NCBI RefSeq assembly: GCF_018704065.1
Contig: NZ_JAGUQP010000027.1
Coordinates: 1 to 42,703, forward strand
From: Desulfovulcanus ferrireducens
GTDB taxonomy: Bacteria > Desulfobacterota > Desulfovibrionia > Desulfovibrionales > Desulfonatronovibrionaceae
Direction: 5' to 3'
DNA length: 42,703 nt
A program made the position numbers and the translations under genes. Position 1 is the first letter of the stretch. Each line of letters begins with the position of its first letter. The notes under the pieces were generated by a model. It was not told where the DNA came from. It was given only the letters and a program-made list of their open reading frames with translations, and did not search any database. Shown here piece by piece: positions 125 through 17,783 of the stretch.

Positions 125-502
125 GTGGGATATTTTGATTAAACAAATATTCTTTTTATTACCGATAGTTATGCTCAACTCACTTTGAGATAAGTATTTC
201 TTGGTTTTCCAAGATATCCTTAGCTCGATTTTTATCCTCCCCTTAGGCCTGTCAGAATTTATCACCGTTTATCCATCATAAGTAATCATTGTCATAAGCT
301 GAATTTTTCTTAAAAGTTAAATTGCTGGAGTTTGTGAATTTTGTTACAAAATGTTACGCTGTTGCAATGTGCAGCTTGACAACAGGGGCAATGCTTTTAT
401 TGTAGAGCCACCCTCCATTTATTCTGGCTAGTTAAGCTACCCTTCGAAAAAGTTATCCTCCTTTATTTCGATAATAATCCTTTCGTGAGCACCATTGTTG
501 AG

Positions 503-540
503 AAACTAACATTGCATCCTGCAACGTTAGTTTGTTTGTT
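503..540 (+). terminator. Hairpin followed by T-rich tract
   Basis: Arms 503-510 (AAACTAAC) and 526-533 pair perfectly. After one A/C mismatch the stem continues with TTGCA 512-516 and TGCAA 520-524 around a 3-base loop. A T-rich run follows on the plus strand. It looks like a rho-independent terminator, but no plus-strand gene ends just before it, so it may serve a gene beyond the contig end or act in the leader of the 669 gene. Confidence 0.4.
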
Positions 541-590: not shown

Positions 591-606
591 TGGCACTGAT
601 TTTGAT
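591..606 (+). promoter_or_regulatory. Candidate sigma-54 promoter (-24/-12)
   Basis: TGGCAC at 591-596 is a perfect -24 element. Ten bases after its GG comes TTGAT at 602-606, which matches the -12 element except that the usual GC is GA. It lies about 60 bases before the Usp gene start at 669. The window encodes an NtrC-type activator, but nothing directly links it to this site. Confidence 0.35.
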
Positions 607-668: not shown

Positions 669-1649
669 GTGATGGGTGCAAGTTTTATAACGGACATAGA
701 GACGGCTGAGAAAGTATTAAACGATGCCAAAAGAAAAATATTGGTTGTATCTACTTATCCATACCATGGCGATAAAAATATTTTTCAGGTCATTAACCTG
801 GCTTCGAGGCTAGATAAAGAAGTAGTGTTTATGTCGGTAGATAATATATCCCGGCTTTATGATTACAAGAGACAAAGACAAAGATATATCAAAAAGTATG
901 AAGAACGAGCAAAAAGAAATTTTTGTCGTTGTGATAAGTTGTGTAAATCATTTGGTGTTAATGTGTATTATTTGGTTGTGCATGATAACTTGGACAAAAT
1001 ACTCTCGCGCATATGCAAAGCAGTCAAGCTTATTGATATGATTGTTTTAGAGCCAGATATAGATATTTATAGTATTACAAGTAAACTTCCTGTGCATTTA
1101 TACAGTATCCATGTATTGTCTGATATAGATATACAGGGATACGAAGTTGATAGTTGTAGAGAAAATATAAAAAACAAAAAAGAAGAAGATAGAGGTGGTG
1201 CCATGTTTCTAAAACTTAAAAGAAAAAGAAAGAAGAAAAAGGAAGTGGAAGAGAAAGAGCATTTAAACAAGCCTACAGCGCAGCAATCATGTGAAGAAAA
1301 CAAAATTTTGGTGGTTAGCAAAGATTCTTCATTTACCCAGGCTATTATCGAGTATGCTGTGCACATGGCTTCTAAGTTAAATGCCAAGATTGTCGCTCTA
1401 AATTTAGATGAAAAGTCTCAGAATTTTGAGGCATTTAAAAAGCAGGCAAGAGAAGCTGCTTTGGTGTTTCAAGCTAAGGCAGGAGAGAGAGGGGTAGGAT
1501 TTTCTCATCTTGTAGCCGAGGGTGAGGAGAGTGCTGTTATTCGTCAATTGCATGCTAAAGATAAAGCGATGAAGTATATTATTGATGATTCTCCGACCTA
1601 TATAGAAAAGGGACAACATTTTCCTGTTTATTGTCGTCTTCAGGTATAG
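669..1649 (+). CDS. Tandem universal-stress-protein-like protein
   Basis: Two UspA-like alpha/beta halves are visible. The first starts at KILVVSTYP (about residues 23-165). The second starts at KILVVSKDSS (about 213-326). They are joined by a very basic linker near residues 180-195 (KLKRKRKKKK). Usp proteins bind ATP or sense stress, but no clear GxxGxxxxS ATP loop is seen here, so nucleotide binding is doubtful. AAGGAG at 657-662 supports the start, GTG 669 or ATG 672. A second in-frame ATG at 1203 has a GAGGTG-like site in front and could yield the C-terminal Usp half alone. It sits 5' of an SLC13 permease, from which a short palindrome separates it. Its role may be to modulate that transporter, which is inference. 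Confidence 0.6.
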   Translation: MMGASFITDIETAEKVLNDAKRKILVVSTYPYHGDKNIFQVINLASRLDKEVVFMSVDNISRLYDYKRQRQRYIKKYEERAKRNFCRCDKLCKSFGVNVYYLVVHDNLDKILSRICKAVKLIDMIVLEPDIDIYSITSKLPVHLYSIHVLSDIDIQGYEVDSCRENIKNKKEEDRGGAMFLKLKRKRKKKKEVEEKEHLNKPTAQQSCEENKILVVSKDSSFTQAIIEYAVHMASKLNAKIVALNLDEKSQNFEAFKKQAREAALVFQAKAGERGVGFSHLVAEGEESAVIRQLHAKDKAMKYIIDDSPTYIEKGQHFPVYCRLQV

Positions 1650-1772: not shown

Positions 1773-1842
1773 TAAGTGAGGGATGTGGACTTTCGGATCC
1801 TGACTCTGGTTTGACTGAAAACTTAACTTGAAGGGGGATTGT

Positions 1843-3642
1843 ATGACCTTTGAGATGATTTTGGTTATGGGGGTGCTTTTTGTAGCTATCCTTATGTTTA
1901 TTTTTGAGTGGGTACGTGTTGATGTAGTGGGCATTATCATGATGGTTGTTTTGCCTCTTCTTGGCTTGGTTACTCCTAAGGAGGCTATAAGCGGCCTGAG
2001 TAGTAACGCTGTTGTCTCTATTATTGCCGTAATTATTATTGGCGCAGGACTGGATAAGACTGGAGTTATGAATTCTCTGGCTCGTCTTATTTTGAAGTTT
2101 GCTGGCAAGAGCGAAAGCAGGATTATTGCCCTAATTTCAGGAACTGTCGCCTTCATATCTAGTTTTATGCAAAATATTGGAGCAGCAGCTTTATTTTTAC
2201 CTGCGGTGCGCAGAATAGCAAGGCAAACCAACATTCCGGTTCCGCGCATCCTCATGCCAATGGGCTTTTGCGCTATCATTGGCGGGTGTATTACCTTGGT
2301 TGGCTCCAGCCCCCTTATTTTACTGAATGATTTAATGAAGGTGGTTGGAGATTATCAACCATTTGGACTTTTTAGTGTTACCCCGCTTGGTCTCGCTCTT
2401 ACAGCGGCAGGCATATTATATTTTATTTTTTTGGGAAGGTATATTTTACCTGCCAAGGCCAGTGAAGAAAAATACGGTCCGTTGTCTCCAGTCTTGGCAA
2501 AGACATACGGAGAAATTGGTGATTTGTATGAACTTCATATCCCCGATAGTTTTAAGGAGCAGAGCTTAAAGGCTATTGACTTACGGCCGCTCTATTTTTG
2601 TACTGTAGTGGCAATAGCCAAGGGCACAACGCGTCAGAGAGTTTTTGCCCCTGAGCCAGATGAATTCCTGGGGCCTGGGGATGATATCGCCGTGGTCGGG
2701 CCGCGTGAGCTGGTAGAAAAACTCGCTCAAGATTACGGATGGAAATTAAAAAAGGAGCTAGAGGTTTTTGCCGAAGACCTTTCCCCTAACAACGCTGGTA
2801 TTATGGAAGCTATTGTTACTCCTCGTTCACAACTGGTTCACCATACTTTAAAGGAATTTAAGTTTCGTCGTCGTTTTGGTGTAAACCCGATGGCCATTTT
2901 TCGCAGAGACAAGATATTTATTAGCGGTATTTCGGACATAGAGTTGTTGCCTGGTGATGCGCTTTTGTTGTTTGGACGTTGGGAAAAATTTCATTTCCTA
3001 AAAGAAAAACCGGATTTTGCTTTTACAGAACCAGTGAAAGGGGAAATTATTAATACGGAAAAGGCCAAGTGGGCCCTTGGTTGCCTGGTTGTGTCTCTTG
3101 TTATGATTTTGGGCTTTCATGTGCAACTTTCAATTGCTTTGCTGACCGGTGCCTTGGGCATGGTGATTACCAAAGTCTTGACGATTGATGAGGCATATGA
3201 TTCAGTTGACTGGATGACTGTTTTTCTTCTGGGGGGCCTTATTCCTTTGGGCGTAGCTTTTCAGAATACTGGGGCAGCTAAGTTTATAGCAGATTCGATT
3301 ATGTCAGCATTAGGAAGTGTTTCTCCCCTTACATTATTTATTGTTATTGGTCTATTGACTTCATTCTTTACCCTTGTTGTTTCCAATGTGGGATGTACCG
3401 TATTAATGGTTCCTCTTTCCATGAATATGGCTATTAAGGCGGGAGCCGATCCAAGAATCGCCGCATTGGTAGTGGCTGTTGCGGCCTCCAATACTTTTGT
3501 CTTACCTACCCATCAGGTGAATGCCTTGATTATGCGGCCAGGTGGATATCGTACTATTGATTATGTAAAGGCAGGATCTGGTATGACCATCCTTTACCTA
3601 GTAGTAATGATAGCTGGGTTGGCTTTATTTTATGGTTTCTAA
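1843..3642 (+). CDS. SLC13/DASS-family anion permease with two TrkA-C domains
   Basis: This is a 599-residue inner-membrane transporter. A hydrophobic N-terminal half (about residues 1-215) and C-terminal half (about 405-599) surround two soluble TrkA-C (RCK-C) domains at about 227-300 and 323-390. Each ends in the typical GDD-IAVVG or GDALLLFG strand. This is the layout of the SLC13-related permeases common in marine bacteria. In sulfate reducers such proteins are candidate Na+-coupled sulfate or dicarboxylate importers, but the substrate is not readable from sequence. ATG 1843 is chosen because AAGGGGG at 1831-1837 sits five bases before it; an upstream TTG at 1828 overlaps that site. The TrkA-C pair suggests gating by a small ligand. 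A sodium exporter downstream fits Na+ cycling. Confidence 0.8.
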   Translation: MTFEMILVMGVLFVAILMFIFEWVRVDVVGIIMMVVLPLLGLVTPKEAISGLSSNAVVSIIAVIIIGAGLDKTGVMNSLARLILKFAGKSESRIIALISGTVAFISSFMQNIGAAALFLPAVRRIARQTNIPVPRILMPMGFCAIIGGCITLVGSSPLILLNDLMKVVGDYQPFGLFSVTPLGLALTAAGILYFIFLGRYILPAKASEEKYGPLSPVLAKTYGEIGDLYELHIPDSFKEQSLKAIDLRPLYFCTVVAIAKGTTRQRVFAPEPDEFLGPGDDIAVVGPRELVEKLAQDYGWKLKKELEVFAEDLSPNNAGIMEAIVTPRSQLVHHTLKEFKFRRRFGVNPMAIFRRDKIFISGISDIELLPGDALLLFGRWEKFHFLKEKPDFAFTEPVKGEIINTEKAKWALGCLVVSLVMILGFHVQLSIALLTGALGMVITKVLTIDEAYDSVDWMTVFLLGGLIPLGVAFQNTGAAKFIADSIMSALGSVSPLTLFIVIGLLTSFFTLVVSNVGCTVLMVPLSMNMAIKAGADPRIAALVVAVAASNTFVLPTHQVNALIMRPGGYRTIDYVKAGSGMTILYLVVMIAGLALFYGF

Positions 3643-3692: not shown

Positions 3693-3753
3693 CGCGTAAG
3701 GATAGGGTTTTGTTCACATGTCTTTATCTTATAAAAAATAAGTGGAGCTATGT

Positions 3754-4209
3754 ATGTTGGTTTCTAAAATCATGCAAACAGAACTTGTGTTGGCTGATAT
3801 GGAAAGTGATTTTGTGACACTTTTATGCAAGATTAGTAACTTATCGCCAAGACAAATTTACGTAGTTGATGATCAACTAAAATTGCAGGGGATAATTACT
3901 GGGTATGATTTGTTAAAGGTGGTATTGCCTGAATATATAGATTCAAATTTATTACGTTCAATTAGAGACCAGAAAATTGATGATTATCTTTTAAAATGTA
4001 TTGACCATATAAAAGAGAAAAAAGCCAGTGAAATTATGGTTCGTGACTTTACTTATTTAAAAGAAACAGATCATGCTATGGAGGCTGAGGCTTTGATTGT
4101 TGAAAAAAGAATTAATGCTTTACCTGTACTAGATGAGAATGGAAAAATTCTTGGAGAAGTGCACAGACGTGATATTTTGAATTATATAGCCAGGCTTTGC
4201 TGTAAATAA
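3754..4209 (+). CDS. CBS-domain pair protein
   Basis: The protein has 151 residues, nearly all made of two CBS motifs: about residues 3-60 (VSKIMQTELV through GIITGYDLLKV) and about 92-148 (ASEIMVRDF through LGEVHRRDILNYI). CBS pairs bind adenosyl nucleotides and regulate transporters or enzymes. The start is ATG 3754, preceded by GGAG at 3744-3747. A GTG at 3742 overlaps that site and is less likely. It stands alone between two ion transporters, so it may report cellular energy state to one of them. That is inference; no membrane segment or other domain is present. Confidence 0.75.
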   Translation: MLVSKIMQTELVLADMESDFVTLLCKISNLSPRQIYVVDDQLKLQGIITGYDLLKVVLPEYIDSNLLRSIRDQKIDDYLLKCIDHIKEKKASEIMVRDFTYLKETDHAMEAEALIVEKRINALPVLDENGKILGEVHRRDILNYIARLCCK

Positions 4210-4438: not shown

Positions 4439-5776
4439 ATGTTTTGGACGGCGACCTTAATATTTGTCATTTCATATGCGGTAATTGTATCTGAAAAGAT
4501 ACATAAAACCAAGGTGGCGCTGTTTGGAGCTGCCCTGGTTTTAATTACAAAAATCCTTTTGCAACACGAGGCTCTGCACGACATTGAGCTTGGTGTAGAT
4601 TGGAACGTTATCTTTTTGCTCATTTCAATGATGATCATCATCAATGTTATGACCAAAACAGGGGTTTTTCAATATGTAGCCATCAAATCTGCCAAGGTAG
4701 CCAAAGGAGAGCCATATACCATAATGGCCATCTTTGCCGTGATTACTGCCATTGGTTCGGCCTTTCTGGACAATGTAACCACTGTTCTTCTTCTGGCTCC
4801 GGTAACTCTGTTAATTGCAGAACAACTGGAAGTGGACCCGGTCCCTTACCTGATTACCGAGGCCCTGGCTTCAAATATTGGCGGGACTGCCACGTTAATT
4901 GGTGACCCCCCAAATATCATGATCGCATCTAAAGCGGGTCTGAACTTTATGGACTTTATTGTCCATCTTACCCCGGCCATTATTATCATCTTTGTTATCT
5001 GGATGCTTTGCTGGAAAATCATTTTTGGCAAGCGTCTTCATGTTAAGCAGGAAAACAGAGAGCGCGTCATGGCCATGAATGAAAACGAGCTTATCAAAAA
5101 TCCTGTCCTGCTCAAAAAATCACTCTTTGTTCTAGCCTTAACCATTACTGGTTTTATCCTGCATGGGGTATTTCACTACGAACCAGCCACAGTAGCCTTG
5201 ATGGGTGCAGCCACATTGTTGCTTATTTCCGGAGAAGAGCCGCATGAAATCCTGGCCGAAGTGGAATGGCCAACCATTTTCTTTTTTATTGGCCTGTTCA
5301 TCATAATTGGCGGCACGGTCAAAGTCGGACTTATTGAACTCATGTCGCAAAAAATGATCCAAATAACCAACCCCCAACCGGATAACATGTTCACCCTTTC
5401 CATGGTGATGGTCTGGTTCTCTGCAATTGCCTCAGCTATTGTGGACAATATCCCCTTTGTGGCCACTATGAATCCATTGCTCATTGATATGGTCCACAAG
5501 GTTTACGGTTTAACTGACGCTGCAACAATGGAGCACATCCAGCACGCAGCCATGATGCCGGTCTGGTGGGCCTTGGCCTTAGGTGCTTGTCTTGGGGGTA
5601 ATGGTTCTCCCATTGGGGCCTCCGCCAATGTTATTGTTGTTGGTATGAGCGAAAAGGCAGGGCATAAAATAACCTTTGTTCGCTTTTTAAAATATGGTGT
5701 GCCAGTAACGGTTTTGACTATTGTTATATCTATGCTTTATATTTATGTACGGTATTATGTGTTGGGTTGGGTATAA
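4439..5776 (+). CDS. NhaD/ArsB-superfamily Na+/H+ antiporter
   Basis: The protein has 445 residues with about a dozen membrane segments. It shows the inverted-repeat signature of the ion-transporter superfamily: SAFLDNVTTVLLLAP with GGTATLIGDPPNIM in the first half, SAIVDNIPFVATMNP with GGNGSPIGASANVIV in the second. The paired DN motifs and the GDPPN loop are typical of NhaD-type antiporters and also of ArsB-like permeases. NhaD (Na+ or Li+ out, H+ in) is favoured by length and by the neighbouring SLC13 permease. GGGAGGG at 4427-4433 precedes the ATG. The leader at 4312-4376 may control it. No ars genes are nearby. Confidence 0.75.
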   Translation: MFWTATLIFVISYAVIVSEKIHKTKVALFGAALVLITKILLQHEALHDIELGVDWNVIFLLISMMIIINVMTKTGVFQYVAIKSAKVAKGEPYTIMAIFAVITAIGSAFLDNVTTVLLLAPVTLLIAEQLEVDPVPYLITEALASNIGGTATLIGDPPNIMIASKAGLNFMDFIVHLTPAIIIIFVIWMLCWKIIFGKRLHVKQENRERVMAMNENELIKNPVLLKKSLFVLALTITGFILHGVFHYEPATVALMGAATLLLISGEEPHEILAEVEWPTIFFFIGLFIIIGGTVKVGLIELMSQKMIQITNPQPDNMFTLSMVMVWFSAIASAIVDNIPFVATMNPLLIDMVHKVYGLTDAATMEHIQHAAMMPVWWALALGACLGGNGSPIGASANVIVVGMSEKAGHKITFVRFLKYGVPVTVLTIVISMLYIYVRYYVLGWV

Positions 5777-5931
5777 AAAGCGATTTATTGCCGTATTTTT
5801 GTAAGTGATAGGCTAAAAAAATAAATGTGAATGGTTAATTCCTGTTTTTTGCTAGTTATAAATGTTATTGTACGTGTTTTGATGTTGTGAGCTTAATAAA
5901 AATTGAACAAGACTAACATAATAAATAAGTT

Positions 5932-6190
5932 ACTCAGCTTTCTGAGTTAATTTGCGAGCGCATTTTCTTCAATGCTAACAAAGACTTGGACAGATCTAAG
6001 GCTTGCTTGCGGGCTGTGCATAATGGGGTTAGTCAATAGAATATTATTTAATGCTTTTTCTGTTGTTATGATGGGTTTCGAAAGTTCGATGGAATAACCT
6101 CCCTATGCACAGCACTTCCGCAATCTTCGCCAAGATGTGTTACCCAACCCGTTTGTAATGCATTTCAGAAAATGCTCTCTTCAATTGTGT
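5932..6190. repeat. Long imperfect palindrome (interior type)
   Basis: The left arm (gcgcattttcttcaatgctaac, then gcttgcttgcgggctgtgcat) pairs imperfectly with the right arm (atgcacagcacttccgcaat, then the gcatttcagaaaatgctct region). The reverse complement of 6110-6172 closely matches 18548-18612, which places it in the same family as the 18.5-kb element. Its first 54 bases recur inverted at 40226-40279. Confidence 0.65.
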
Positions 6191-6248
6191 AGTAATTTGA
6201 GGATGTTAATCATGTCAGCAAGTTGAGTAAGTTATCATCAACACCTAA

Positions 6249-6860: not shown

Positions 6861-8888
6861 ATGTTTTTTAGAAAAAAAAATCGTATTATAGAAACGGACT
6901 TGCCATCAACGCCTCCACAGGAACTCTTGCGTTTGGATCCCTTGGAAAGCTTAAAGAAGAAGGTTGAAGAAGCAAATCTGACTTTCCCAGCCAAGGATGC
7001 TGTCAGAAATGAATTGCGTAAGCTAGAGAAAACAGATCCTGCCTTACCAGACTATACGATTGGCCTTAATTACATTGACTTCGTCCTCAGTTTACCGTGG
7101 CAAAAAAGTACACCTGACCGTTTTGATCTTCTTTCTGTAGAGCAAATTCTACAAAAAACTCATTACAGTTTGCGGGAGGTAAAGGAGAGGGTACTGGATT
7201 TTCTGGCATCCAAGGTTTTACACCAACTTAATCATAGTCATATTTTGGTGGTAGATGATGAAGAAATAACCCGTTCCAACTTAAAATATGCCTTGAGCAA
7301 AGATGGATATAATGTTTTAACCGCGGCTAATGGCAGCGAAGCCCTTGATATACTCAACAAATGCAGGATCGATGTATTAATCTCAGACCTTAAAATGGAA
7401 CAGATCAACGGGGAACAACTTTTGGAAGAGGTGAAGAGAGTATCTCCCTCTACCCGTTTTATTATGATCACTGGGTATGCAACCGTTGACTCTGCTGTAT
7501 CGATCTTAAAAAAGGGAGCTGTGCATTATTTACGCAAGCCCGTTGATTTGAACGAACTGCGAAAATGTGTGAGGATGGCTTTAGATTACTCTTCGGCTTA
7601 TATTGCCAGAGGAACTGTCCTTTGCTTTGCCGGGCCTCCAGGTACAGGCAAGACCTCAATAGGCCAGACTATTGCCCAAGCCATGGGCAGAAAATTTATT
7701 TGTTTTTCAATGGCCGGTTTGCGTGATGAAGCAGAACTTAAAGGACACCGTAGAACTTATATTGGTGCCATGCCAGGCCGCATTATCAGTGAAATAAAAA
7801 AGGCCGGTGTGAACAACCCTGTTATTATGCTTGATGAGGTCGATAAACTCGGTACTGACTTTAGAGGATATGCTTCTGCTGTTTTACTGGAAATTTTAGA
7901 TCCTGCTCAGAACCATAACTTTATTGATTTTTTTCTGGACGTTCCTTTTGATCTTTCTAAAGTTTTTTTTATCGCAACGGCCAATGAAATAGAGCGCTTG
8001 CCAAGGCCATTGCTGGATCGAATGGAAGTAATCTATTTCCCCAGTTATTCAGAAGAAGAAAAAATAGCTATAGCCAAACATCATCTTGTCCCTCGACAGC
8101 TTAAAGAATGTGGGCTCGCTATTGGTGACGTAATGTTTCAGGAAGATGCTCTCCAGGAAGTTATTCGGAGTTACACACAGGAGGCAGGGTTAAGGGAGTT
8201 GGAACGTCAGATAGCCAAAATTTGTCGTAAATTAGCCAGGAAAAAATTGAGACGGGAAGAAAACTCTTTTCTTATCGACAAGGAGGAAGTGTATCGTCTT
8301 CTGGGACCGAAAAGAGTTTACAGGCCTTTATTAAAACCGAAGCAACGTGTTGGAGTAGCCAGGGGACTGGTCTGGTCTGAATTTGGAGGCGAGGTGATTT
8401 TGGTTGAGGCCTGTAGAATGCAGGGCAATAAGCAGCTTTTGCTTACTGGTTCCCTTGGACGTGTCTTGCGAGAGTCTGCCCGGATTGCCCTTAGCTTTAT
8501 TCGTACAAATGCCAGTCAGCTTAAATTAGCGCCGGATTTTTTTGCCAACTCTGATATCCATGTACATATTCCAGCAGGTAGTGTGCCCAAAGATGGTCCT
8601 TCTGCAGGGCTGACTATCGTCATGGCCTTGATCTCGTTACTTGCCGATATACCTATATTTAGTGATGTGGCTATTTCGGGAGAGATAACTTTAAGCGGAG
8701 AAGTTATGGCTGTAAGCGGTTTGCGCGATAAACTTCTTGCAGCTAAAAGAGCGGGAATAAATAAAGTTATTTTGCCTTTAGCTAATAAGGAAAATGTATT
8801 ATATATGTCAGATGATGTTAAAAAGGGGCTGGAAATTGTCTTTGTAGATGAGATCTTGGATGCTGTCCCTTATGTTTTAAGTCGATAG
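6861..8888 (+). CDS. Lon-like ATP-dependent protease with inserted receiver domain
   Basis: The protein has 675 residues. In order: a Lon-type helical bundle with the SLPW element (about 25-120), a response-regulator receiver domain (about 127-243), Lon AAA+ (about 250-480) and S16 protease (about 497-670). Receiver residues are D132/D133, phosphoacceptor D176, T204 and K226. Walker A is G258-T265 (GPPGTGKT) and Walker B LDE is 324-326. The catalytic dyad is S581 (KDGPSAG) and K624; their spacing of 43 equals that of S679/K722 in E. coli Lon. The usual N-terminal LON substrate-binding domain (about 200 residues) is absent. The receiver interrupts the segment that in E. coli Lon runs from the LAVQ helix into the first AAA+ strand. 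The enzyme is predicted to be an active cytoplasmic protease gated by phosphorylation, with the kinase at 10328-11731 as likely partner. AGGGG about 10 bases upstream is a weak ribosome site. Confidence 0.88.
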   Translation: MFFRKKNRIIETDLPSTPPQELLRLDPLESLKKKVEEANLTFPAKDAVRNELRKLEKTDPALPDYTIGLNYIDFVLSLPWQKSTPDRFDLLSVEQILQKTHYSLREVKERVLDFLASKVLHQLNHSHILVVDDEEITRSNLKYALSKDGYNVLTAANGSEALDILNKCRIDVLISDLKMEQINGEQLLEEVKRVSPSTRFIMITGYATVDSAVSILKKGAVHYLRKPVDLNELRKCVRMALDYSSAYIARGTVLCFAGPPGTGKTSIGQTIAQAMGRKFICFSMAGLRDEAELKGHRRTYIGAMPGRIISEIKKAGVNNPVIMLDEVDKLGTDFRGYASAVLLEILDPAQNHNFIDFFLDVPFDLSKVFFIATANEIERLPRPLLDRMEVIYFPSYSEEEKIAIAKHHLVPRQLKECGLAIGDVMFQEDALQEVIRSYTQEAGLRELERQIAKICRKLARKKLRREENSFLIDKEEVYRLLGPKRVYRPLLKPKQRVGVARGLVWSEFGGEVILVEACRMQGNKQLLLTGSLGRVLRESARIALSFIRTNASQLKLAPDFFANSDIHVHIPAGSVPKDGPSAGLTIVMALISLLADIPIFSDVAISGEITLSGEVMAVSGLRDKLLAAKRAGINKVILPLANKENVLYMSDDVKKGLEIVFVDEILDAVPYVLSR

Positions 8889-8947: not shown

Positions 8948-10306
8948 TTATATATCGCAGTCATATTTTTTTAGTTTACGCCATAGGGAAACACGGTCGA
9001 TTCCTAGAATTTTAGCTGCCTTTGTTTTATTTCCTTTTGTCATTTCCAGAACTTTTAAAATATATTGTCGTTCGTGTTCTGCCAGAGGGACAAAGTGTCG
9101 AGGCTCACTTTCTTCTATTGGAAGGATGACACTTTCCGGGTTTTGACGCAGATCTGGTGGCAGATGTCCAACATCAATAGTGTCTGCATGACACAAAGCG
9201 ATGCTCCTTTCTATAATGTTCTTCAGTTCCCTTACATTGCCTGGAAAATCATATTGCATCAGCCTGCCCAGCGCCCGATCAGAAATCTTTAGTTCTTTAT
9301 CTGGCTGCAATTGTTTCAGAAAATGGTGAACAAGTAGAGGGATGTCTTCTTTTCTTTCTCGAAGCGGAGGTACCTCTATAGTAATTACATTTAGTCTGTA
9401 ATAAAGATCCTGGCGAAAGCTGCCTTGTTCTACTTCGTAGCTTAAAATTTTATTGGTGGCGGCGAGAATTCGAACATCAAGGTCAATTTCTTTTGTCCCA
9501 CCTACCCTCATTACCTTTTTTTCCTGAAGCACGCGCAACAATTTTGCCTGCGTTGTTAATGGCATGTCTCCAATTTCATCAAAAAGCACTGTGCCCTGGT
9601 TGGCTATTTCTAAAAGCCCGGGTTTTGCGCGATGTGCCCCGGTAAAAGCACCGGCTTCATAGCCGAAGAGTTCGCTCGCCAGTAGAGATTCGCTGAATAT
9701 ACTGCAGTTGATGGCCAAAAACTTTTCTTTTGAGCGGGGACTGAGGGCATGTATCATCCGTGCTACCACTTCTTTGCCAGTGCCTGTTTCTCCAGTAATT
9801 AAAACGGTTGTATCCAGTAAAGCTATCTGAGAAATCGTTTCCTTTAGGGCAATGATTTTGGGAGATGAGCCAATGAGTTGTACACTGGATTTATTTTTTT
9901 CTTCCAGTTGTTGTCTCAGAGAGTGCACTTCTTTTTTGAGAGCACTTTTTTCCAGGGCTTTTTTGACAAGAATGCGTAGTTCTTCAATTTTAAATGGCTT
10001 TGTTAAATAATGGTAGGCACCTTCCTTCATGGCATGGACGGCCGTATTGATTGTAGCGTAGGCGGTTATAATAATTACCTCTGTTGCCGGATGCAATTCT
10101 TTGCATCTCTTTAAAACCTCAATCCCGTCTATATCTGGCAATTTTAAATCTGTTATTAGTAGGTCATAGTTATCTTTTTGAAGAAGTTCCAGAGCTTCTT
10201 TTCCAGTAAGAGAGGTAACTGTCGTATATCCTTCTTTTTGTAAGATATAGGCAATATTGTCCAGAGTGATTTGTTCGTCGTCGCATATAAGTATTTTGAT
10301 GCTCAT
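8948..10306 (-). CDS. NtrC-family sigma-54-dependent response regulator
   Basis: The 452-residue protein has the full three-domain layout. The receiver (1-117) has D9/D10, phosphoacceptor D53, T81 and K103. The AAA+ activator domain (about 142-375) has Walker A GETGTGKE at 172-179 and the sigma-54 loop GAFTGA at 219-224. A Fis-type helix-turn-helix (about 425-452) has NKTKAAKILGIDRVSLWRKL. It activates RNA polymerase carrying sigma-54 when phosphorylated. It lies 21 bases after the histidine kinase in the same operon and converges with the Lon-receiver gene, 59 bases apart. Its targets are unknown. Confidence 0.93.
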   Translation of the reverse strand: MSIKILICDDEQITLDNIAYILQKEGYTTVTSLTGKEALELLQKDNYDLLITDLKLPDIDGIEVLKRCKELHPATEVIIITAYATINTAVHAMKEGAYHYLTKPFKIEELRILVKKALEKSALKKEVHSLRQQLEEKNKSSVQLIGSSPKIIALKETISQIALLDTTVLITGETGTGKEVVARMIHALSPRSKEKFLAINCSIFSESLLASELFGYEAGAFTGAHRAKPGLLEIANQGTVLFDEIGDMPLTTQAKLLRVLQEKKVMRVGGTKEIDLDVRILAATNKILSYEVEQGSFRQDLYYRLNVITIEVPPLRERKEDIPLLVHHFLKQLQPDKELKISDRALGRLMQYDFPGNVRELKNIIERSIALCHADTIDVGHLPPDLRQNPESVILPIEESEPRHFVPLAEHERQYILKVLEMTKGNKTKAAKILGIDRVSLWRKLKKYDCDI

Positions 10307-10327: not shown

Positions 10328-11731
10328 TTACAATGGTAAATAAATTGTAAACGTAGTTCCTTGGCCTAATTTGCTCCTTAGTTTAAGATGGCCACCATGT
10401 TTTTTTACTACGTTATAGACAATAGAAAGACCTAATCCTGTCCCCTCAGATGGGCCTTTAGTCGTAAAAAATGGATCAAAAATCTTATCCTGAACATCGT
10501 CAGGGATACCTTTGCCATTATCTTCTATTTCTATTACTGCTTGATTGTTTATATTGTCTTTTTTGCAGCGGATAATGATGCGTCCCGGCGGCTTCTCAAT
10601 AGCCTGGATAGCATTTAAGATAAGGTTTAAAAGTGCCTCTTGCATTCGTTGTCTATCAAGAGGCAGAGTTATATCCTCTTGTATTTTTAGGTCTATGGTG
10701 ATGCCCGATGGCATTTCGCTCATAGCCAGAAGCTTGGCTCGTTCAATAAGGTTGTTTAGAGATGTTGGATTGAGTTGGAATTCCTGTTGACGAGAAAACT
10801 CTAACAACCCCTTTACAATATCTCTTGCTCGCAGACTTTCGGACTCTATGTTCGATAGATTTCTGTCCAAAAAATTTGTTTCAATATCGGGCAACTCTTC
10901 TCTAAGGATTTGAGCGGTTGTCAGGATGTTGTTTAAGGGATTATTTAACTGATGGGCGATACCCGAGGCGAGGATACCGATGGATGACATTTTTTTAGCT
11001 TGAATAAGCTGTTGCTGATGTATTTTTAACTCTTGAACCATTTTGTTAAAAGCATCAATAACCAGTTGATTCTCGTCATAAGTAGTTAGAGGGGGAATTG
11101 GTTCGAAGGAGCCATGGGCAATCATATTCGCCGCATCCATGACAGTAGTTAATGTTTTAAAGACTCCTTTGAACAGGATAAAAAAGATAATCATACCTGT
11201 TAAAATGGTCAAAATCCCGGTAAAAATAAGTTGTAGCTTCAAATTTCTAACGATTCTATCCAGCTCTTTTTTTTCCGAGTCGGTAATAGTTTTTGTCAAT
11301 TGGAGCATCGACTGAGCAACTGACCTTAGGTCTGTAATAAGCTCTGATTTTTTTGTGGGATGTGAGGAATAAGCTTTAATATCGTTAAATATTTTTTTGT
11401 ATTTTGGGATTAACTCTTTTAGCTTGACTAATGGGTCGTGTATATGCTTTGACTGCGGTATAATATTGTTTAATATATTTAAGGAGTTGTCAAGGTAGAT
11501 GATTGTTTTGCGAAAATCGTTATCATCTTTATATAATAAAAAATTTTTTTCGTATCTTCTTACTTGAAGAAGGTTATTTCTAAACTCTTCACTCTTTTCC
11601 AGAAAAATAAGTTTATCGTTTATTTTGTTCAAATTAATATAAGAAAGACACCCTATTATCAATTGAGATACGGTATAAAAAATAAATATTATTATTATTT
11701 TTTGTTTGAGTGTTAATCTGAATATTTTCAT
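10328..11731 (-). CDS. Membrane sensor histidine kinase
   Basis: The 467-residue protein has two membrane helices (about 11-29 and 168-187) enclosing a roughly 135-residue helical periplasmic sensor. A HAMP linker (about 188-240) and HisKA follow, with phospho-acceptor H260 in SGIAHQLNNPLNN. The HATPase domain shows the N box (NLILNAIQA), G1 (DNGKGIP), F box (FDPFFTTK) and G2 (GTGLGLSI). The helical sensor resembles four-helix-bundle chemoreceptor sensors; its ligand is unknown. It is upstream of, and co-oriented with, the NtrC-type regulator, its likely partner. It is also the nearest candidate to phosphorylate the receiver in the Lon-like protease. No strong ribosome site is seen. Confidence 0.92.
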   Translation of the reverse strand: MKIFRLTLKQKIIIIFIFYTVSQLIIGCLSYINLNKINDKLIFLEKSEEFRNNLLQVRRYEKNFLLYKDDNDFRKTIIYLDNSLNILNNIIPQSKHIHDPLVKLKELIPKYKKIFNDIKAYSSHPTKKSELITDLRSVAQSMLQLTKTITDSEKKELDRIVRNLKLQLIFTGILTILTGMIIFFILFKGVFKTLTTVMDAANMIAHGSFEPIPPLTTYDENQLVIDAFNKMVQELKIHQQQLIQAKKMSSIGILASGIAHQLNNPLNNILTTAQILREELPDIETNFLDRNLSNIESESLRARDIVKGLLEFSRQQEFQLNPTSLNNLIERAKLLAMSEMPSGITIDLKIQEDITLPLDRQRMQEALLNLILNAIQAIEKPPGRIIIRCKKDNINNQAVIEIEDNGKGIPDDVQDKIFDPFFTTKGPSEGTGLGLSIVYNVVKKHGGHLKLRSKLGQGTTFTIYLPL

Positions 11732-11890: not shown

Positions 11891-13732
11891 TTATTCAAAC
11901 AAGTCAAGTAAGTTCTCTTTTAATTCATTGTCTAATTTTTTTTCCCATGGTAGATAGTGGTCCATATAGGCTGTGGCCGGGAGAAGGAAAGATTCCAGCC
12001 CTTTTTTGTTCATGTAAGAAAGCATGCCCTTCCATTTTGGTATAAGGCCTTTTGTCTCATCCAGGAGAATGCGTTTAACCCTATGTTTATCCTCTCCCAG
12101 GGCTTGCCAGAATCTATCTCCGTTGATCCATAACAATCCTTTTTCTTTGATCTTTTGTATGCCGAGCCAGTCCAGCTCAGTTTTAAGGTCATTTGCTGGT
12201 TTTTCCCAGTCTGAAATAAGTTCCTTCTCAAAGATGTCTTCGTCTTTGCGTAGAAATAGAAGTAGATCATTATAGGCATGGATAACTTCACCCAGGCGTG
12301 CATGCACTTCCTCCATGGCCTGGACTATTTTTAAGGGCAGTACCTGGCCAAACACCTTCTTTAATTCTATATTCACTTTGCCCCGATCCTGGCTGAACCA
12401 GTTACTGGCTGAGGTGTAGGTATGACCATTAATATTTAAAATAGCATCAGAACCGGGTCTGGCTGTGCTTTTCATGCCTAAAAGAGCGAGAGGTGAATTG
12501 TTGCCGTCCTTTAAATACATTCGCTGGCCAATTTTAGGCTCTTTTAAATTGACTTCCAGAAATAGTTTGGAGGTATAAAGGGTTTTGTCCTGGCTATAGT
12601 CCGGAACGTCACGCTTGCTTACATTTACCTGGACGTTTGTGAGTGATGAATTGAGATAGCGGGCCAGGCCGGATAATAAATCTTCGTATGTGCTCTCCGG
12701 GAAAACAACCAGCCCTTGTCCGCTAAGTTGTGAGACAGTTGAAGCCCAGGTAGCATTATCGTCTATTTGACTGCTATTAAAGGTTAAATTGGATACTTTA
12801 GTTTCCCAATCTGCTGTGTCCTTGACCAGGGCCTGAGGGTCCTGCGCCAGGGTTTGTGCTTCTTCCCAGGTGTTTTTATCAACAACAAATACAGATATAT
12901 TTGTCGTAGTTTGATCTACGTTTATACTGAAAGTGTATTTTTTTATGCCCCAGTTTATTTCTCGGTTGGCAGAAAACCCTGATGATGTATAAAGAGAAGG
13001 GCTATTAATACTTTGTCCTTGTAAAAGGTATGTTTTAATCTTGGCTCCGGGGATTGGTTCATTAACAGGATACAGGCCAAGTTTTTTGAGCAAAAGGCCA
13101 TTTGTGTCTTTAATCTCCAGTTTTTGTTCTGCATTGGGATGATTTACACTGATAGCTAAAATTCGACCCAGAGAAGGCGAACTTACTGCTTGATATGGAG
13201 AATAATGGTGTACAGTCTCGGCCTGTACAGGCAATGAACTGGCATTGATTACATTTTTTACTGTGTCCAAAACCTTAGCGTATGTTTGTCCATCCGGAAT
13301 GGTTAGGCTGAGGGTCTGCTCGCGACCATTAATTTTCAGGCTGAATCTATAGGTTCCAGCCGGGATATTGGCGGTTCGATTAGCTGGAAAAGCACGCGAA
13401 AGATATTGGTATGGCGGGATGATTTGGTGTGGTGTAATGGCTTTGACTTTGTCTTGAAGTGTAGAATCTGCGCGGGTTAAAGTTGATTTGTGCCAGGGTA
13501 AACCATCAGCAGGCCAGTCAAATTTGTCCAATGCATTCTGAAGCCCATTTAATTTTTGTTCCAGGGAAAGCACAAAAGGTTTGGCCAGACGCAGGTAACT
13601 TTTTTTTGCCCTGTTTCTTTGTTCTTTTTGAGCCCATATAGATGATGTCCACAGTCCTGTTTTGTTCAGGATACTGTTGGTGCCTTCAAAAAGGCGGTTT
13701 AAAAAAGGATTGATGAACTTGATATTGACCAT
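11891..13732 (-). CDS. FliD-like flagellar hook-associated/cap protein (divergent)
   Basis: The protein has about 613 residues. FliD-like features are a hook-IN-type repeat (GTYRFSLKINGREQTLSLTI, about residues 125-160), the motif ILNINGHTYTSASNWF about 435-450, close to the FliD pattern A..-NG-x3-T-S-N followed by G-x-V-x-I-x-L, and a helical C-terminus with a xLLWINGDRFWQAL segment. FliD caps the growing filament. The N-terminus lacks the usual G-x-GSG-hD start, so this is a remote or specialised member. The gene follows truA directly: ATG 13732 begins one base after the truA stop, while an alternative TTG at 13744 overlaps it. The FliJ and MotE-like genes upstream support a flagellar role. 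A family-specific unknown structural protein is the alternative. Confidence 0.55.
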   Translation of the reverse strand: MVNIKFINPFLNRLFEGTNSILNKTGLWTSSIWAQKEQRNRAKKSYLRLAKPFVLSLEQKLNGLQNALDKFDWPADGLPWHKSTLTRADSTLQDKVKAITPHQIIPPYQYLSRAFPANRTANIPAGTYRFSLKINGREQTLSLTIPDGQTYAKVLDTVKNVINASSLPVQAETVHHYSPYQAVSSPSLGRILAISVNHPNAEQKLEIKDTNGLLLKKLGLYPVNEPIPGAKIKTYLLQGQSINSPSLYTSSGFSANREINWGIKKYTFSINVDQTTTNISVFVVDKNTWEEAQTLAQDPQALVKDTADWETKVSNLTFNSSQIDDNATWASTVSQLSGQGLVVFPESTYEDLLSGLARYLNSSLTNVQVNVSKRDVPDYSQDKTLYTSKLFLEVNLKEPKIGQRMYLKDGNNSPLALLGMKSTARPGSDAILNINGHTYTSASNWFSQDRGKVNIELKKVFGQVLPLKIVQAMEEVHARLGEVIHAYNDLLLFLRKDEDIFEKELISDWEKPANDLKTELDWLGIQKIKEKGLLWINGDRFWQALGEDKHRVKRILLDETKGLIPKWKGMLSYMNKKGLESFLLPATAYMDHYLPWEKKLDNELKENLLDLFE

Positions 13733-13733
13733 C

Positions 13734-14480
13734 CTAATACTCAACCTGTTCCAGACATAATCCTTGAGCCGGGGCCGTTGCTGGAGCCAATGTTCTGTCT
13801 TTTTTATGGATGATGTCTTTTACTTTTTGCAGAGGAAGTTCTTTTTTGCCAATACACTTTATGAGGCCGGCAATATTTCTGACCATTTGTTTTAAAAAGC
13901 CATTGGCCTGGATAGACATGACCAGTTCCTGCGGATAAAAACCAGGCCTGAATTCAAGCATGTATACGTTTCTGACCGTATTTTTAACCGGTGTACCAAC
14001 ATTCATAAAAGATTTGAAGTCATGCTCGCCTAAAAGATAAGCACTTGCCTTTTGGAGCAGGTCCAGATCCATGGGCCCAACCGGCCAGACATAATCTTTG
14101 CGCCACGGGAGGACATATTTTTTTTCTGTCCAAAAGGTATAGGTATAGGTTTTAGATTTGGCGCTGTACCGTGCGTGAAAGTTTTGTGATACAAACTCGG
14201 CTTTTACCACACTAATATCTTTTGGCAAAAGTGAATTTAAGGCCTTTTGCCAGGGAATGCTAGCTTTGTCAGTGGGCACATCAAAGTGCGCCACCTGGCC
14301 TAAGGCGTGTACCCCCGCATCAGTGCGCCCTGAGCCATGTACACGGATAAATTGCTGACAGATTTTTGTAATGGCCTCTTCCAGAGTACCCTGAATTGTA
14401 GGGCCATTTTTCTGCACCTGCCATCCGCAAAAATTGGTTCCGATATAAGCCAGAGTGAGCTTTATACGTTGCAGGCTCAT
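13734..14480 (-). CDS. truA: tRNA pseudouridine(38-40) synthase TruA
   Basis: The 248-residue protein has the usual TruA length. It carries the catalytic motif GSGRTDAGVHA with the nucleophile D54, the N-terminal strand YIGTNFCGWQ and the C-terminal region FLKQMVRNIAG. It makes pseudouridine at positions 38-40 of the tRNA anticodon arm. Its start overlaps the MotE-like stop by four bases (ATGA), and the FliD-like gene begins at its end, so it is embedded in a flagellar run by translational coupling. That is probably a matter of expression rather than shared function. Confidence 0.96.
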   Translation of the reverse strand: MSLQRIKLTLAYIGTNFCGWQVQKNGPTIQGTLEEAITKICQQFIRVHGSGRTDAGVHALGQVAHFDVPTDKASIPWQKALNSLLPKDISVVKAEFVSQNFHARYSAKSKTYTYTFWTEKKYVLPWRKDYVWPVGPMDLDLLQKASAYLLGEHDFKSFMNVGTPVKNTVRNVYMLEFRPGFYPQELVMSIQANGFLKQMVRNIAGLIKCIGKKELPLQKVKDIIHKKDRTLAPATAPAQGLCLEQVEY

Positions 14481-15139
14481 TTTTTATCTTCAGCAAATGG
14501 GGCGTGAAGCTGGGTCAACTTCTCAGAGAGCTTGGCAGCTTTTTTAGCCTCGACATAGGAGAGTATCTCGCCTGCTTTGCGCCCACGCATTCCGGACAGA
14601 ATTTTGACAGCCAAATCTTCGTCCACTGTTGACAGGACCTGTGCGGCTTGTTTGGGTTTCATATTGGCATACATATCTACCAGATGTTTGATTTTTTTGT
14701 CCTTTAATACGTTGGCTTCCTCAAGCATCTTCTTTAGACGGGCCTCAACTTTTTGCAACTGCTTCAGTTTGGCATTGAGTTCTTTTTCAAGAAGTTTAAG
14801 ACCTTGTTCCTTCTGGGCCAGTTCCTTTTCTTTGGCTTTAAGACGCTTTAGCTCAGCAGAGAGATTGACTGGTTGAGTTTTTTTAGGCGGAGCACTTTTT
14901 TTCTGTTCTTTGGGCTTGGAAGCGGCAATGGCCGGCTTTGTCAGTTGCAGATGCGTTCCTTGTTTGGCCGGATCATATTCTGGCTGGATAGCGATACCTA
15001 GAAAAAAGGCCAGTTTTATGACGCCGACAGCCATCACAACCTGAAGCAACCTGGAAGGTTTGAGACTAGCGCTGTTGAAAACGCAAGACAGCCATCTCGT
15101 CAAATTCTTTTTGTTCTTTTTGTTTTTGTTCATACTCAT
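14477..15139 (-). CDS. MotE-like protein (MgtE-N-type domain, flagellar)
   Basis: The protein has 220 residues if translation begins at ATG 15139. It has a lysine-rich N-terminus, one membrane segment (about 31-51), a Pro/Lys-rich stretch, a long coiled coil (about 92-150) and a C-terminal MgtE-N-like helical domain (YANMKPKQAAQVL to LSEKL). This is the layout of MotE, a chaperone for the motor protein MotC in rhizobia and found beside fliJ in many bacteria. The long start overlaps fliJ by 74 bases with no ribosome site. An ATG at 15034 with CAGG in front is an alternative but would cut into the membrane segment. It overlaps truA by four bases. Confidence 0.7.
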   Translation of the reverse strand: MSMNKNKKNKKNLTRWLSCVFNSASLKPSRLLQVVMAVGVIKLAFFLGIAIQPEYDPAKQGTHLQLTKPAIAASKPKEQKKSAPPKKTQPVNLSAELKRLKAKEKELAQKEQGLKLLEKELNAKLKQLQKVEARLKKMLEEANVLKDKKIKHLVDMYANMKPKQAAQVLSTVDEDLAVKILSGMRGRKAGEILSYVEAKKAAKLSEKLTQLHAPFAEDKK

Positions 15140-15839: not shown

Positions 15840-17783
15840 ATGTCCAATAAACGTCATATTTATCTGCAAACCATAGAAATAGAGGAAGCTATTCATAAGG
15901 TAAAACATGTCCTTCAACCCAGTCAATTAGTGCAAAAAGAAATGGTGCCGACCCATGATGCCGTAAGGAGAATTACAGCCGCTCCCATCTGGGCGAAGTA
16001 CTCATCCCCTACCTTTCATAGTGCGGCCATGGATGGGGTGGCAGTAAAAGCAGACAAGACATTTCAGGCCAGGGAAGGCAGTCCCGTGTATTTAAAGAAG
16101 GAGCAGGATTATATTGAAGTAAATACAGGCAACCCCCTGCCAGAAGGTATGGATGCAGTGATCATGATTGAAAATATAGTCCAGGTCGATGATGATACTA
16201 TTGCTATAGAACAGCCTGCTTTTCCCTGGCAGCATGTTCGTCGAATCGGGGAAGATATCGTGGCCACGGAGCTCCTTCTCCCCCAGAATCATGAACTTTC
16301 GCCCTATGATATCGGAGCACTTTTAAGTGCTGGCATTTGGGATGTAGAAGTGTGGGAAAAGGTGAAGATTCTCATCATTCCTACAGGCGACGAAGTCCTG
16401 GACTTTCGCTTGCGCCCCAAGCCTAAAGCCGGCCAAGTAGTGGATAGTAACTCTCAAGTTCTGGCCAGTATGGCCAAATCCTGGGGATGTGATGTCCAAA
16501 CCATTGCCCCTGTGCCTGACGATGTGAATAAACTTGAGGCAGCCGTGGACCAGGCCTTGAACTCTTCTGCCCATGTTGTGGTCATTGGCGCAGGGTCTTC
16601 TGCAGGGAGTAAAGATTTTACGCGCCAGATTATGGAGCGCTTTGGTCAGGTGTTGGTTCACGGCATTAAGGCCATGCCAGGTAAACCATCTCTTTTGGGC
16701 GAGGCCAGGGGAAAGTTGTTGGTTGGTGCACCTGGTTATCCTGTCAGTGCGGTCATCTGTTTTGAGCAATTGTTAAAGCCCATTGTTCATTGGCTTGGGC
16801 GCAAAGTTTTATCTGAGCCAGAAAAAATAGAGGTTGAATTAACTAGGCGGGTGCCGTCTAAACTTGGAGTGCGCGAATTTTTGCGTTTGTCCATTGGGCG
16901 GGTGGGGGATAAATATGTGGCCACACCTCTGGCCAGAGGCGCTGGAATGATTACAACTTTAACAAAGGCCCAGGGCATGACCATTATTGAGGAAAAAAAA
17001 GAGGGTTTGGAAGAAGGCGCCATTGTGCCAGCTGTTCTTTTGCGCAACAAAAAGGAATTGGATCAAGTCCTGGTGGCTGTTGGCAGTCATGATAACACTC
17101 TGGATTTGTTGGCAAATGAACTAATGGGTCTGAGCCAGCCCATCCGGCTTTCTTCCACCCATGTGGGCAGTATGGGCGGCCTTATGGCGGTCAAAAAAGG
17201 TTCCACGCATTTAGCCGGCATACATTTATTCGACCCGGAAACAGGAGATTATAATTTCCCCTTTATTGATAAATATATCCCCGGGTTAGAATTTAAATTG
17301 ATTAACCTGGCAATCAGACATCAGGGCCTGATTGTGGCAAAGGGAAATCCAAAAAACATAAAAGGGATTGATGACCTGACCAGAAAAGATGTTCGGCTTA
17401 TTAATCGCCAGCGTGGGGCCGGTACGCGTATTCTTTTAGACCATCATCTTAAAACAGCCGGGATCAGCCCTAACCAGGTAAATGGTTACGATAAGGAGGA
17501 ATTTACGCATATGGCTGTGGCAGTAAATGTACTTAGCGGAGCTGCTGATTGTGGTCTGGGAATCTATGCGGCGGCTAAAGCCCTGGGTCTGGATTTTGTG
17601 CCTTTGGCCAAGGAGCGCTATGATCTTCTTATCCCGGATTTTGTAATGCAGGATGAAAAAGTGCAAGCCGTGTTGGAGTTTTTAAATAACGATGCCTTTA
17701 AAAATAAAATTCTCGCTTTGGGCGGTTACGAGGTGGACTTGACCGGACAGGAGATGAAGCCGTCCGGCCAGAGGCTGGATTGA
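15840..17783 (+). CDS. MoeA-type molybdopterin molybdotransferase fused to a PBP-like domain
   Basis: The 647-residue protein has MoeA in the first about 410 residues and a periplasmic-binding-protein-like domain from about 425 to 625. MoeA signs are FHSAAMDGVAV, the MoCF part with IIPTGDEVLD, GAGSSAGSKDF and MPGKPSLLG, and GAPGYPVSAVICF. The C-terminal part shows the PBP pattern NRQRGAGTRILLDHHL and AADCGLGIYAAAKALGLDF. MoeA inserts molybdate (or tungstate) into adenylated molybdopterin. The fused domain probably binds molybdate or tungstate, or regulates; it has no signal peptide, so it is cytoplasmic. This fusion is known in archaea and sulfate reducers. AAGGAG 7 bases upstream fixes the start. 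It converges with the nitroreductase. Confidence 0.9.
   Translation: MSNKRHIYLQTIEIEEAIHKVKHVLQPSQLVQKEMVPTHDAVRRITAAPIWAKYSSPTFHSAAMDGVAVKADKTFQAREGSPVYLKKEQDYIEVNTGNPLPEGMDAVIMIENIVQVDDDTIAIEQPAFPWQHVRRIGEDIVATELLLPQNHELSPYDIGALLSAGIWDVEVWEKVKILIIPTGDEVLDFRLRPKPKAGQVVDSNSQVLASMAKSWGCDVQTIAPVPDDVNKLEAAVDQALNSSAHVVVIGAGSSAGSKDFTRQIMERFGQVLVHGIKAMPGKPSLLGEARGKLLVGAPGYPVSAVICFEQLLKPIVHWLGRKVLSEPEKIEVELTRRVPSKLGVREFLRLSIGRVGDKYVATPLARGAGMITTLTKAQGMTIIEEKKEGLEEGAIVPAVLLRNKKELDQVLVAVGSHDNTLDLLANELMGLSQPIRLSSTHVGSMGGLMAVKKGSTHLAGIHLFDPETGDYNFPFIDKYIPGLEFKLINLAIRHQGLIVAKGNPKNIKGIDDLTRKDVRLINRQRGAGTRILLDHHLKTAGISPNQVNGYDKEEFTHMAVAVNVLSGAADCGLGIYAAAKALGLDFVPLAKERYDLLIPDFVMQDEKVQAVLEFLNNDAFKNKILALGGYEVDLTGQEMKPSGQRLD

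Follow-up and report, generated by a model that had tools for sequence, protein, structure and literature searches.

Where two-component systems are known to control proteolysis, they do so through separate adaptors: RssB and CpdR are response regulators that act on ClpXP. In other proteins a receiver is coupled to an AAA+ ring, as in the NtrC/DctD activators, where it lies ahead of the AAA+ domain and the protein acts by activating sigma-54. A Lon protease that carries a receiver of its own (here, RR-Lon) resembles both arrangements and differs from both. It shares with RssB and CpdR regulated proteolysis as a phosphorelay output (predicted for RR-Lon), but its receiver lies within the protease chain; it shares with NtrC/DctD the coupling of a same-subfamily receiver to an AAA+ ring, but that receiver sits within the AAA+ domain and the output would be proteolysis. 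If this holds, a receiver in the Lon ATPase domain would place the protease motor under direct phospho-control.

The closest described system is that of D. vulgaris. In 2011, Rajeev et al. (PMC3333781) reported DVU3303 to be an unusual Lon-containing response regulator that forms a three-component system together with kinase DVU3304 and the sigma-54 regulator DVU3305, and proposed that it may need phosphorylation for protease activity. According to the same study, DVU3305 controls the operon in which it lies as well as DVU3302-3298, with Usp-type genes among the targets; a 2015 paper placed this regulon under sigma-54 (PMC4641369). In D. vulgaris, DVU3303-3305 showed pairwise cofitness above 0.9 and were all detrimental in chlorate, where the target transporter DVU3299 was important (Trotter et al. 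2023; PMC10102598). This cofitness is not clean proof, since the Lon gene is listed first of the three and insertions in it may be polar. Our search of the open-access literature found no biochemistry of any receiver-Lon.

Here, we analyzed a 42,703-nucleotide stretch of DNA from Desulfovulcanus ferrireducens (the window). A preliminary description of its RR-Lon gene knew of no functional account of the architecture; given the 2011 and 2023 reports, that statement is out of date. By analogy of architecture and neighborhood, we identify the window RR-Lon as a DVU3303-type protein. The kind of system is not new, having already been described, and RR-Lon is a further example of the DVU3303 family. 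What is new is that the Lon receiver groups with that of the partner regulator, that the two have kinase-specificity residues in common, and that the palindrome TTGCA-N3-TGCAA recurs upstream. Because the family is common, with members in about one-third of the order's sampled genomes, and genetic data exist in a tractable sulfate reducer, the question of whether phosphorylation gates the Lon motor is a testable one.

A receiver domain is inserted within the ATPase domain of Lon

RR-Lon is encoded by a single uninterrupted open reading frame with an ATG start, 675 codons for amino acids, and no internal stops (Table 1). Pfam matched, in order, Response_reg (residues 128-237; E = 2.5e-27), AAA (254-393; 1.6e-24), Lon_lid (415-467; 4.3e-19), and Lon_C (472-671; 2e-67), each with a score well over the cutoff, confirming the earlier observation that a receiver and the Lon AAA+ and protease parts occupy one chain. 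The NCBIfam model for endopeptidase La (TIGR00763) scored 658 bits against a cutoff of 608. Alignment recovered all LonA hallmarks (Walker A and B, sensor, and serine/lysine dyad), and the receiver hallmarks (the DD pair, phospho-acceptor aspartate, T/S, lysine, and receiver fold) were all found by Pfam, alignment, and the structure model. The individual residues named in the preliminary description (D132/D133, D176, T204, K226, the Walker A motif, and S581/K624) were likewise all present in the translation and alignment.

Table 1. Coordinates of features in the window
Feature	Position	Strand	Basis or remark
Palindrome GTTGCA-ATG-TGCAGC, 1 mismatch, candidate regulator site	361..375	.	
Palindrome ATTGCA-TCC-TGCAAC, within longer dyad AACTAACATTGCA/TGCAACGTTAGTT (504-532)	511..525	.	
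Weak sigma-54-like element TGGCAC-N5-TTGAT (GA, not GC, at -12)	591..606	+	~60 bp before the start at 669
Universal-stress-protein-like gene, weak; first in adjacent transport cluster	669..1649	+	Usp E = 0.0011, below cutoff
CitMHS (SLC13-like) anion transporter with TrkA_C domains	1828..3642	+	Pfam, locus comparison
CBS-domain protein, conserved neighbor	3742..4209	+	Pfam, locus comparison
Second CitMHS/ArsB-like transporter	4439..5776	+	Pfam, locus comparison; conserved only in same-genus locus L043
RR-Lon: three-helix segment, receiver, AAA+, lid, S16 protease	6861..8888	+	ORF, Pfam, structure model
Lon three-helix segment and HYSLREVKERVLDFLASKVL helix, residues 26-124	6936..7232	+	Aligns with T. 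thermophilus Lon (7p6u) 248-345
Inserted receiver domain, residues 125-245	7233..7595	+	Pfam, alignment, model; absent from canonical Lons
D176, predicted phosphorylation site	7386..7388	+	Conserved 53/53
AAA+ core and lid, residues 251-467	7611..8261	+	Pfam, alignment
Walker A GPPGTGKT, residues 258-265	7632-7655	+	Alignment
Lon_C protease domain, residues 472-672	8274..8876	+	Pfam, alignment
S581 of dyad	8601-8603	+	Dyad spacing 43
K624 of dyad	8730-8732	+	Dyad spacing 43
NtrC-type sigma-54 response regulator, 452 aa, DVU3305-like, GAFTGA motif	8948..10306	-	Pfam, locus comparison
Histidine kinase, 467 aa, DVU3304-like; HisKA and HATPase_c; weak HAMP, 4HB_MCP-like N terminus	10328..11731	-	Domain search

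RR-Lon has the AAA+, lid, and S16 protease parts of canonical LonA (E. coli; T. thermophilus, 7p6u; M. taiwanensis, 4ypl/7fd4). However, ~245 residues are missing from its N terminus, and a 128-residue insertion with the receiver stands ahead of AAA+ strand 1. In T. thermophilus Lon (7p6u), positions 248-345 correspond to RR-Lon residues 25-122, and positions 353-771 to residues 251-669. RR-Lon therefore lacks the N-terminal substrate-binding region, and the Pfam scan gave no match to such a domain. The insert stands where 7p6u has a 7-residue loop; in an alignment with five ordinary Lons it falls between the HYxL...KERILEYLxVRxL helix and GPILCF (AAA+ strand 1). The helix that precedes the insert (HYSLREVKERVLDFLASKVL) is counted in the large domain of the AAA+ ATPase, which places the receiver within the motor domain. 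The preliminary description had set it in front of the motor.

An AlphaFold2 model (mean pLDDT, 84.1; pTM, 0.75) shows helix 105-124 continuing into receiver strand 1 at residue 127, and receiver helix 230-243 followed by a weaker linker and the AAA+ strand at 253-257. The top structural matches of this model were Lon structures (Z ~30-32), over residues ~21 to 675. The first 25 residues were modeled with pLDDT below 50. Within this otherwise low-confidence tail, an MFFxKK-like motif (residues 1-6; 6861-6878) is conserved in homologues, with F3 invariant in 50 aligned sequences; it is possibly a targeting or adaptor motif.

The architecture and both sets of active-site residues are conserved

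Within the family, 5 of 18 genomes encode a protein of the same architecture; the four besides the window protein are 77% and 48% identical to it. Across the order, 103 of 297 sampled genomes encode an RR-Lon, plus one broken copy (~104), and 48 of 395 genomes of the phylum do so at E <= 1e-200. A sequencing frameshift or misassembly joining two genes had also been considered. This possibility is excluded by the single open frame and by more than 100 homologues of the same architecture from independent genomes, and we regard its probability as negligible.

Among 53 aligned RR-Lons, the receiver residues D132, D176, and K226 were conserved in all and D133 and T204 in 52; P227 and the Walker residues G258/K264/T265 were invariant as well, as were S581 and K624 (each 53/53). 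The catalytic parts are therefore intact, as first described, and the invariant phospho-site rules out a decayed or decorative receiver. The receivers of the window protein and its same-genus orthologue share 79% of their residues; dN between the two proteins is 0.131 in the receiver, 0.100 in the AAA+ part, and 0.172 in the protease (dS, ~1.4 to 1.6, is close to saturation); purifying selection on the receiver is comparable to that on AAA+. The Walker A motif of RR-Lons reads GPPGTGKT (T in 91%), versus GPPGVGKT in canonical LonA (V in all of 30 ordinary Lons, a contrast that is partly by construction, since these 30 were chosen by the GPPGVGKT motif).

The genome also encodes two Lons of ordinary length (open frames of 827 and 821 aa), to which RR-Lon is 49 to 50% identical over the AAA+ and protease part; RR-Lon is thus an extra, specialized copy. 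A scan of a collection of genome contigs returned receiver matches only, and a plasmid search gave only canonical Lon-type matches, none spanning 80% of the query. We conclude that the RR-Lon architecture is real, that it is conserved, and that it is probably functional.

Receivers that act as phosphate sinks exist, and the Lon receiver might likewise be a sink or scaffold that tunes the kinase only, leaving Lon activity indifferent to phosphorylation. None of our results favors this reading, and we consider it very unlikely: a separate single-domain receiver would be enough for such a role, and insertion within the ATPase domain, together with joint conservation of the receiver and Lon active sites in 53/53 proteins, points to coupling.

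RR-Lon lies beside a histidine kinase, a sigma-54 regulator, and anion transporter genes

As in DVU3303-3305, the Lon-containing response regulator of the window is found beside a kinase and an NtrC-type regulator, with Usp-type (a weak match in the window) and anion transporter genes nearby. The arrangement differs: the three D. vulgaris genes carry consecutive numbers and are handled as a single run, whereas in the window the regulator and kinase genes, 22 bp apart, form a separate pair convergent to RR-Lon. RR-Lon is transcribed separately from both, so that polarity of the kind that may affect the D. vulgaris genes is avoided, which would allow a cleaner test.

Of the 53 RR-Lon loci, 39 contain a partner-type regulator (identity of 47.5% or higher across more than 400 aa). 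The CitMHS/TrkA_C transporter is a neighbor, 59 to 86% identical, in the other RR-Lon genomes of the family, and another genus of the family keeps the RR-Lon module in rearranged form. Among the 18 family genomes, the regulator (at least 50% identity) and the transporter (at least 59%, about 60%) occur exactly in the 5 genomes with RR-Lon, and the remaining 13 lack all three. This co-occurrence is supportive rather than independent evidence, because the RR-Lon genomes represent only two genera.

The gap between transporter and RR-Lon is 1,084 bp in the window versus ~167 bp in L043, owing in part to an element of ~300 bp at 5930-6231. This element has near-matching ends (TTACTCAGCTTTCTG and the reverse complement TTACTCAACTTGCTG) and nested inverted repeats; ~38 more copies occur in the genome, nearly all at 94 to 98% identity and many at contig ends, and it resembles a MITE at which the assembly breaks.

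The Lon receiver groups with the receiver of the partner regulator

The best match to the Lon receiver in this genome is the receiver of the partner regulator (46%, 102.9 bits; next match, 86 bits). In a tree of 129 receivers built from a short alignment, one clade of 92 rows (support, 91/81) took in every one of the 53 Lon receivers together with 39 of 40 partner receivers; the 20 other receivers taken from this genome fell outside it. Within the clade, Lon and partner receivers were not cleanly split, with two label changes on this short-alignment tree, so that the history of the receiver may comprise one fusion, conversion, or more than one event.

In other systems, kinase specificity is set by alpha-1 positions 14, 15, 18, 21, and 22 (Spo0F numbering). 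At these five positions, Lon receivers matched their same-locus partners at 0.56 versus 0.05 for other receivers, compared to overall identities of 0.46 and 0.33, respectively. This match fits one kinase acting on both receivers, although shared ancestry also predicts such likeness. A test at these positions for lineage-specific coevolution between Lon and partner receivers of one locus gave no signal, as same-locus pairs were no closer than cross-locus pairs (permutation P = 0.82).

Receivers of the NtrC class commonly dimerize. This property, the sister-like position of the Lon and partner receivers on the tree, and the missing N-domain would all suit a receiver that replaces the Lon N-domain as a substrate-docking module and recruits the partner regulator, by receiver-receiver pairing, for degradation in a negative feedback. 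Feedback degradation predicts opposite fitness signs for Lon and regulator, yet in D. vulgaris the mutants share their sign with cofitness above 0.9 (PMC10102598), and a sign common to Lon, kinase, and regulator speaks against simple feedback degradation, unless polarity is the explanation. In addition, an invariant phospho-site is not needed for pairing alone. We therefore consider docking and feedback unlikely.

A proposed model for phospho-controlled proteolysis by RR-Lon

The preliminary description proposed a two-component system whose output is protein degradation, switched on or off at D176. An intact, conserved receiver in a catalytically complete Lon, with a histidine kinase nearby, is consistent with such a system; that this kinase donates the phosphate, which way the switch works, and which proteins are degraded are parts of the proposal that we infer. 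Our preferred reading, held with moderate confidence, is that a single kinase feeds a phosphorelay with two outputs, of which RR-Lon is the proteolytic one, and that RR-Lon is switched on by phosphorylation. The kinase would phosphorylate the NtrC-type activator, which would then drive stress and anion transport genes, and the same kinase would also phosphorylate D176 of the receiver inside Lon. Phosphorylation of D176 would turn the protease on toward a narrow set of substrates, the general substrate capture of the usual Lon N-domain having been lost and housekeeping left to the two ordinary Lons. As the receiver is bordered on one side by a helix next to the nucleotide pocket and on the other by AAA+ strand 1, allosteric action on ring assembly or ATPase activity would be the most likely route. 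A more specific version, plausible but put forward tentatively, is that phosphorylation directly gates the ATPase ring from within the AAA+ large domain, that the receiver derives from the partner transcription factor, and that one kinase sets both transcription and degradation.

The sign of the switch could also be reversed, with unphosphorylated RR-Lon active and the signal turning degradation off. No sequence feature sets the sign, and both signs occur among receiver-AAA+ proteins (NtrC versus DctD/NtrC1). The resemblance of D. vulgaris Lon mutants to kinase and regulator mutants, a point that polarity weakens, nevertheless favors action in the same direction, and we give little probability to a repressing receiver.

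A palindrome recurs upstream of RR-Lon genes

Among gapped palindromes in the 350 bp upstream of RR-Lon, an unbiased count ranked TTGCA-N3-TGCAA first. It occurred exactly in 21 of 53 loci and with at most one mismatch in 33 of 53, versus 0.02 and 0.5 expected from base shuffles, respectively. The palindromes of the window precede the Usp-transporter cluster that starts at 669 and do not stand directly before RR-Lon, where the best site has two mismatches; no convincing strict sigma-54 promoter was found near RR-Lon. The DVU3303-3305 system has a conserved regulator site, and the recurring palindrome is a candidate counterpart.

The whole genome contains four exact palindrome sites, versus two for a reversed control pattern. 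At locus L140 (G000:C8:49844-49856), an exact site lies ~200 bp before a gene for a TrkH-type cation transporter. According to the 2011 report, DVU3305 also targets potassium uptake genes (PMC3333781); the parallel is suggestive, although a single site cannot prove it.

An Rfam scan of the window gave no match. Beside a tRNA pseudouridine synthase gene, an ORF at 11891-13744 is FliD_C-like (just above cutoff) and another at 14477-15139 is MgtE_N-like (just below); both are possibly flagellar genes. The gene at 15840-17783 encodes a MoeA that bears a PBP-like domain (PF12727) at its C terminus, as described for DVU0951 of the chlorate/tungsten-cofactor pathway (PMC10102598).
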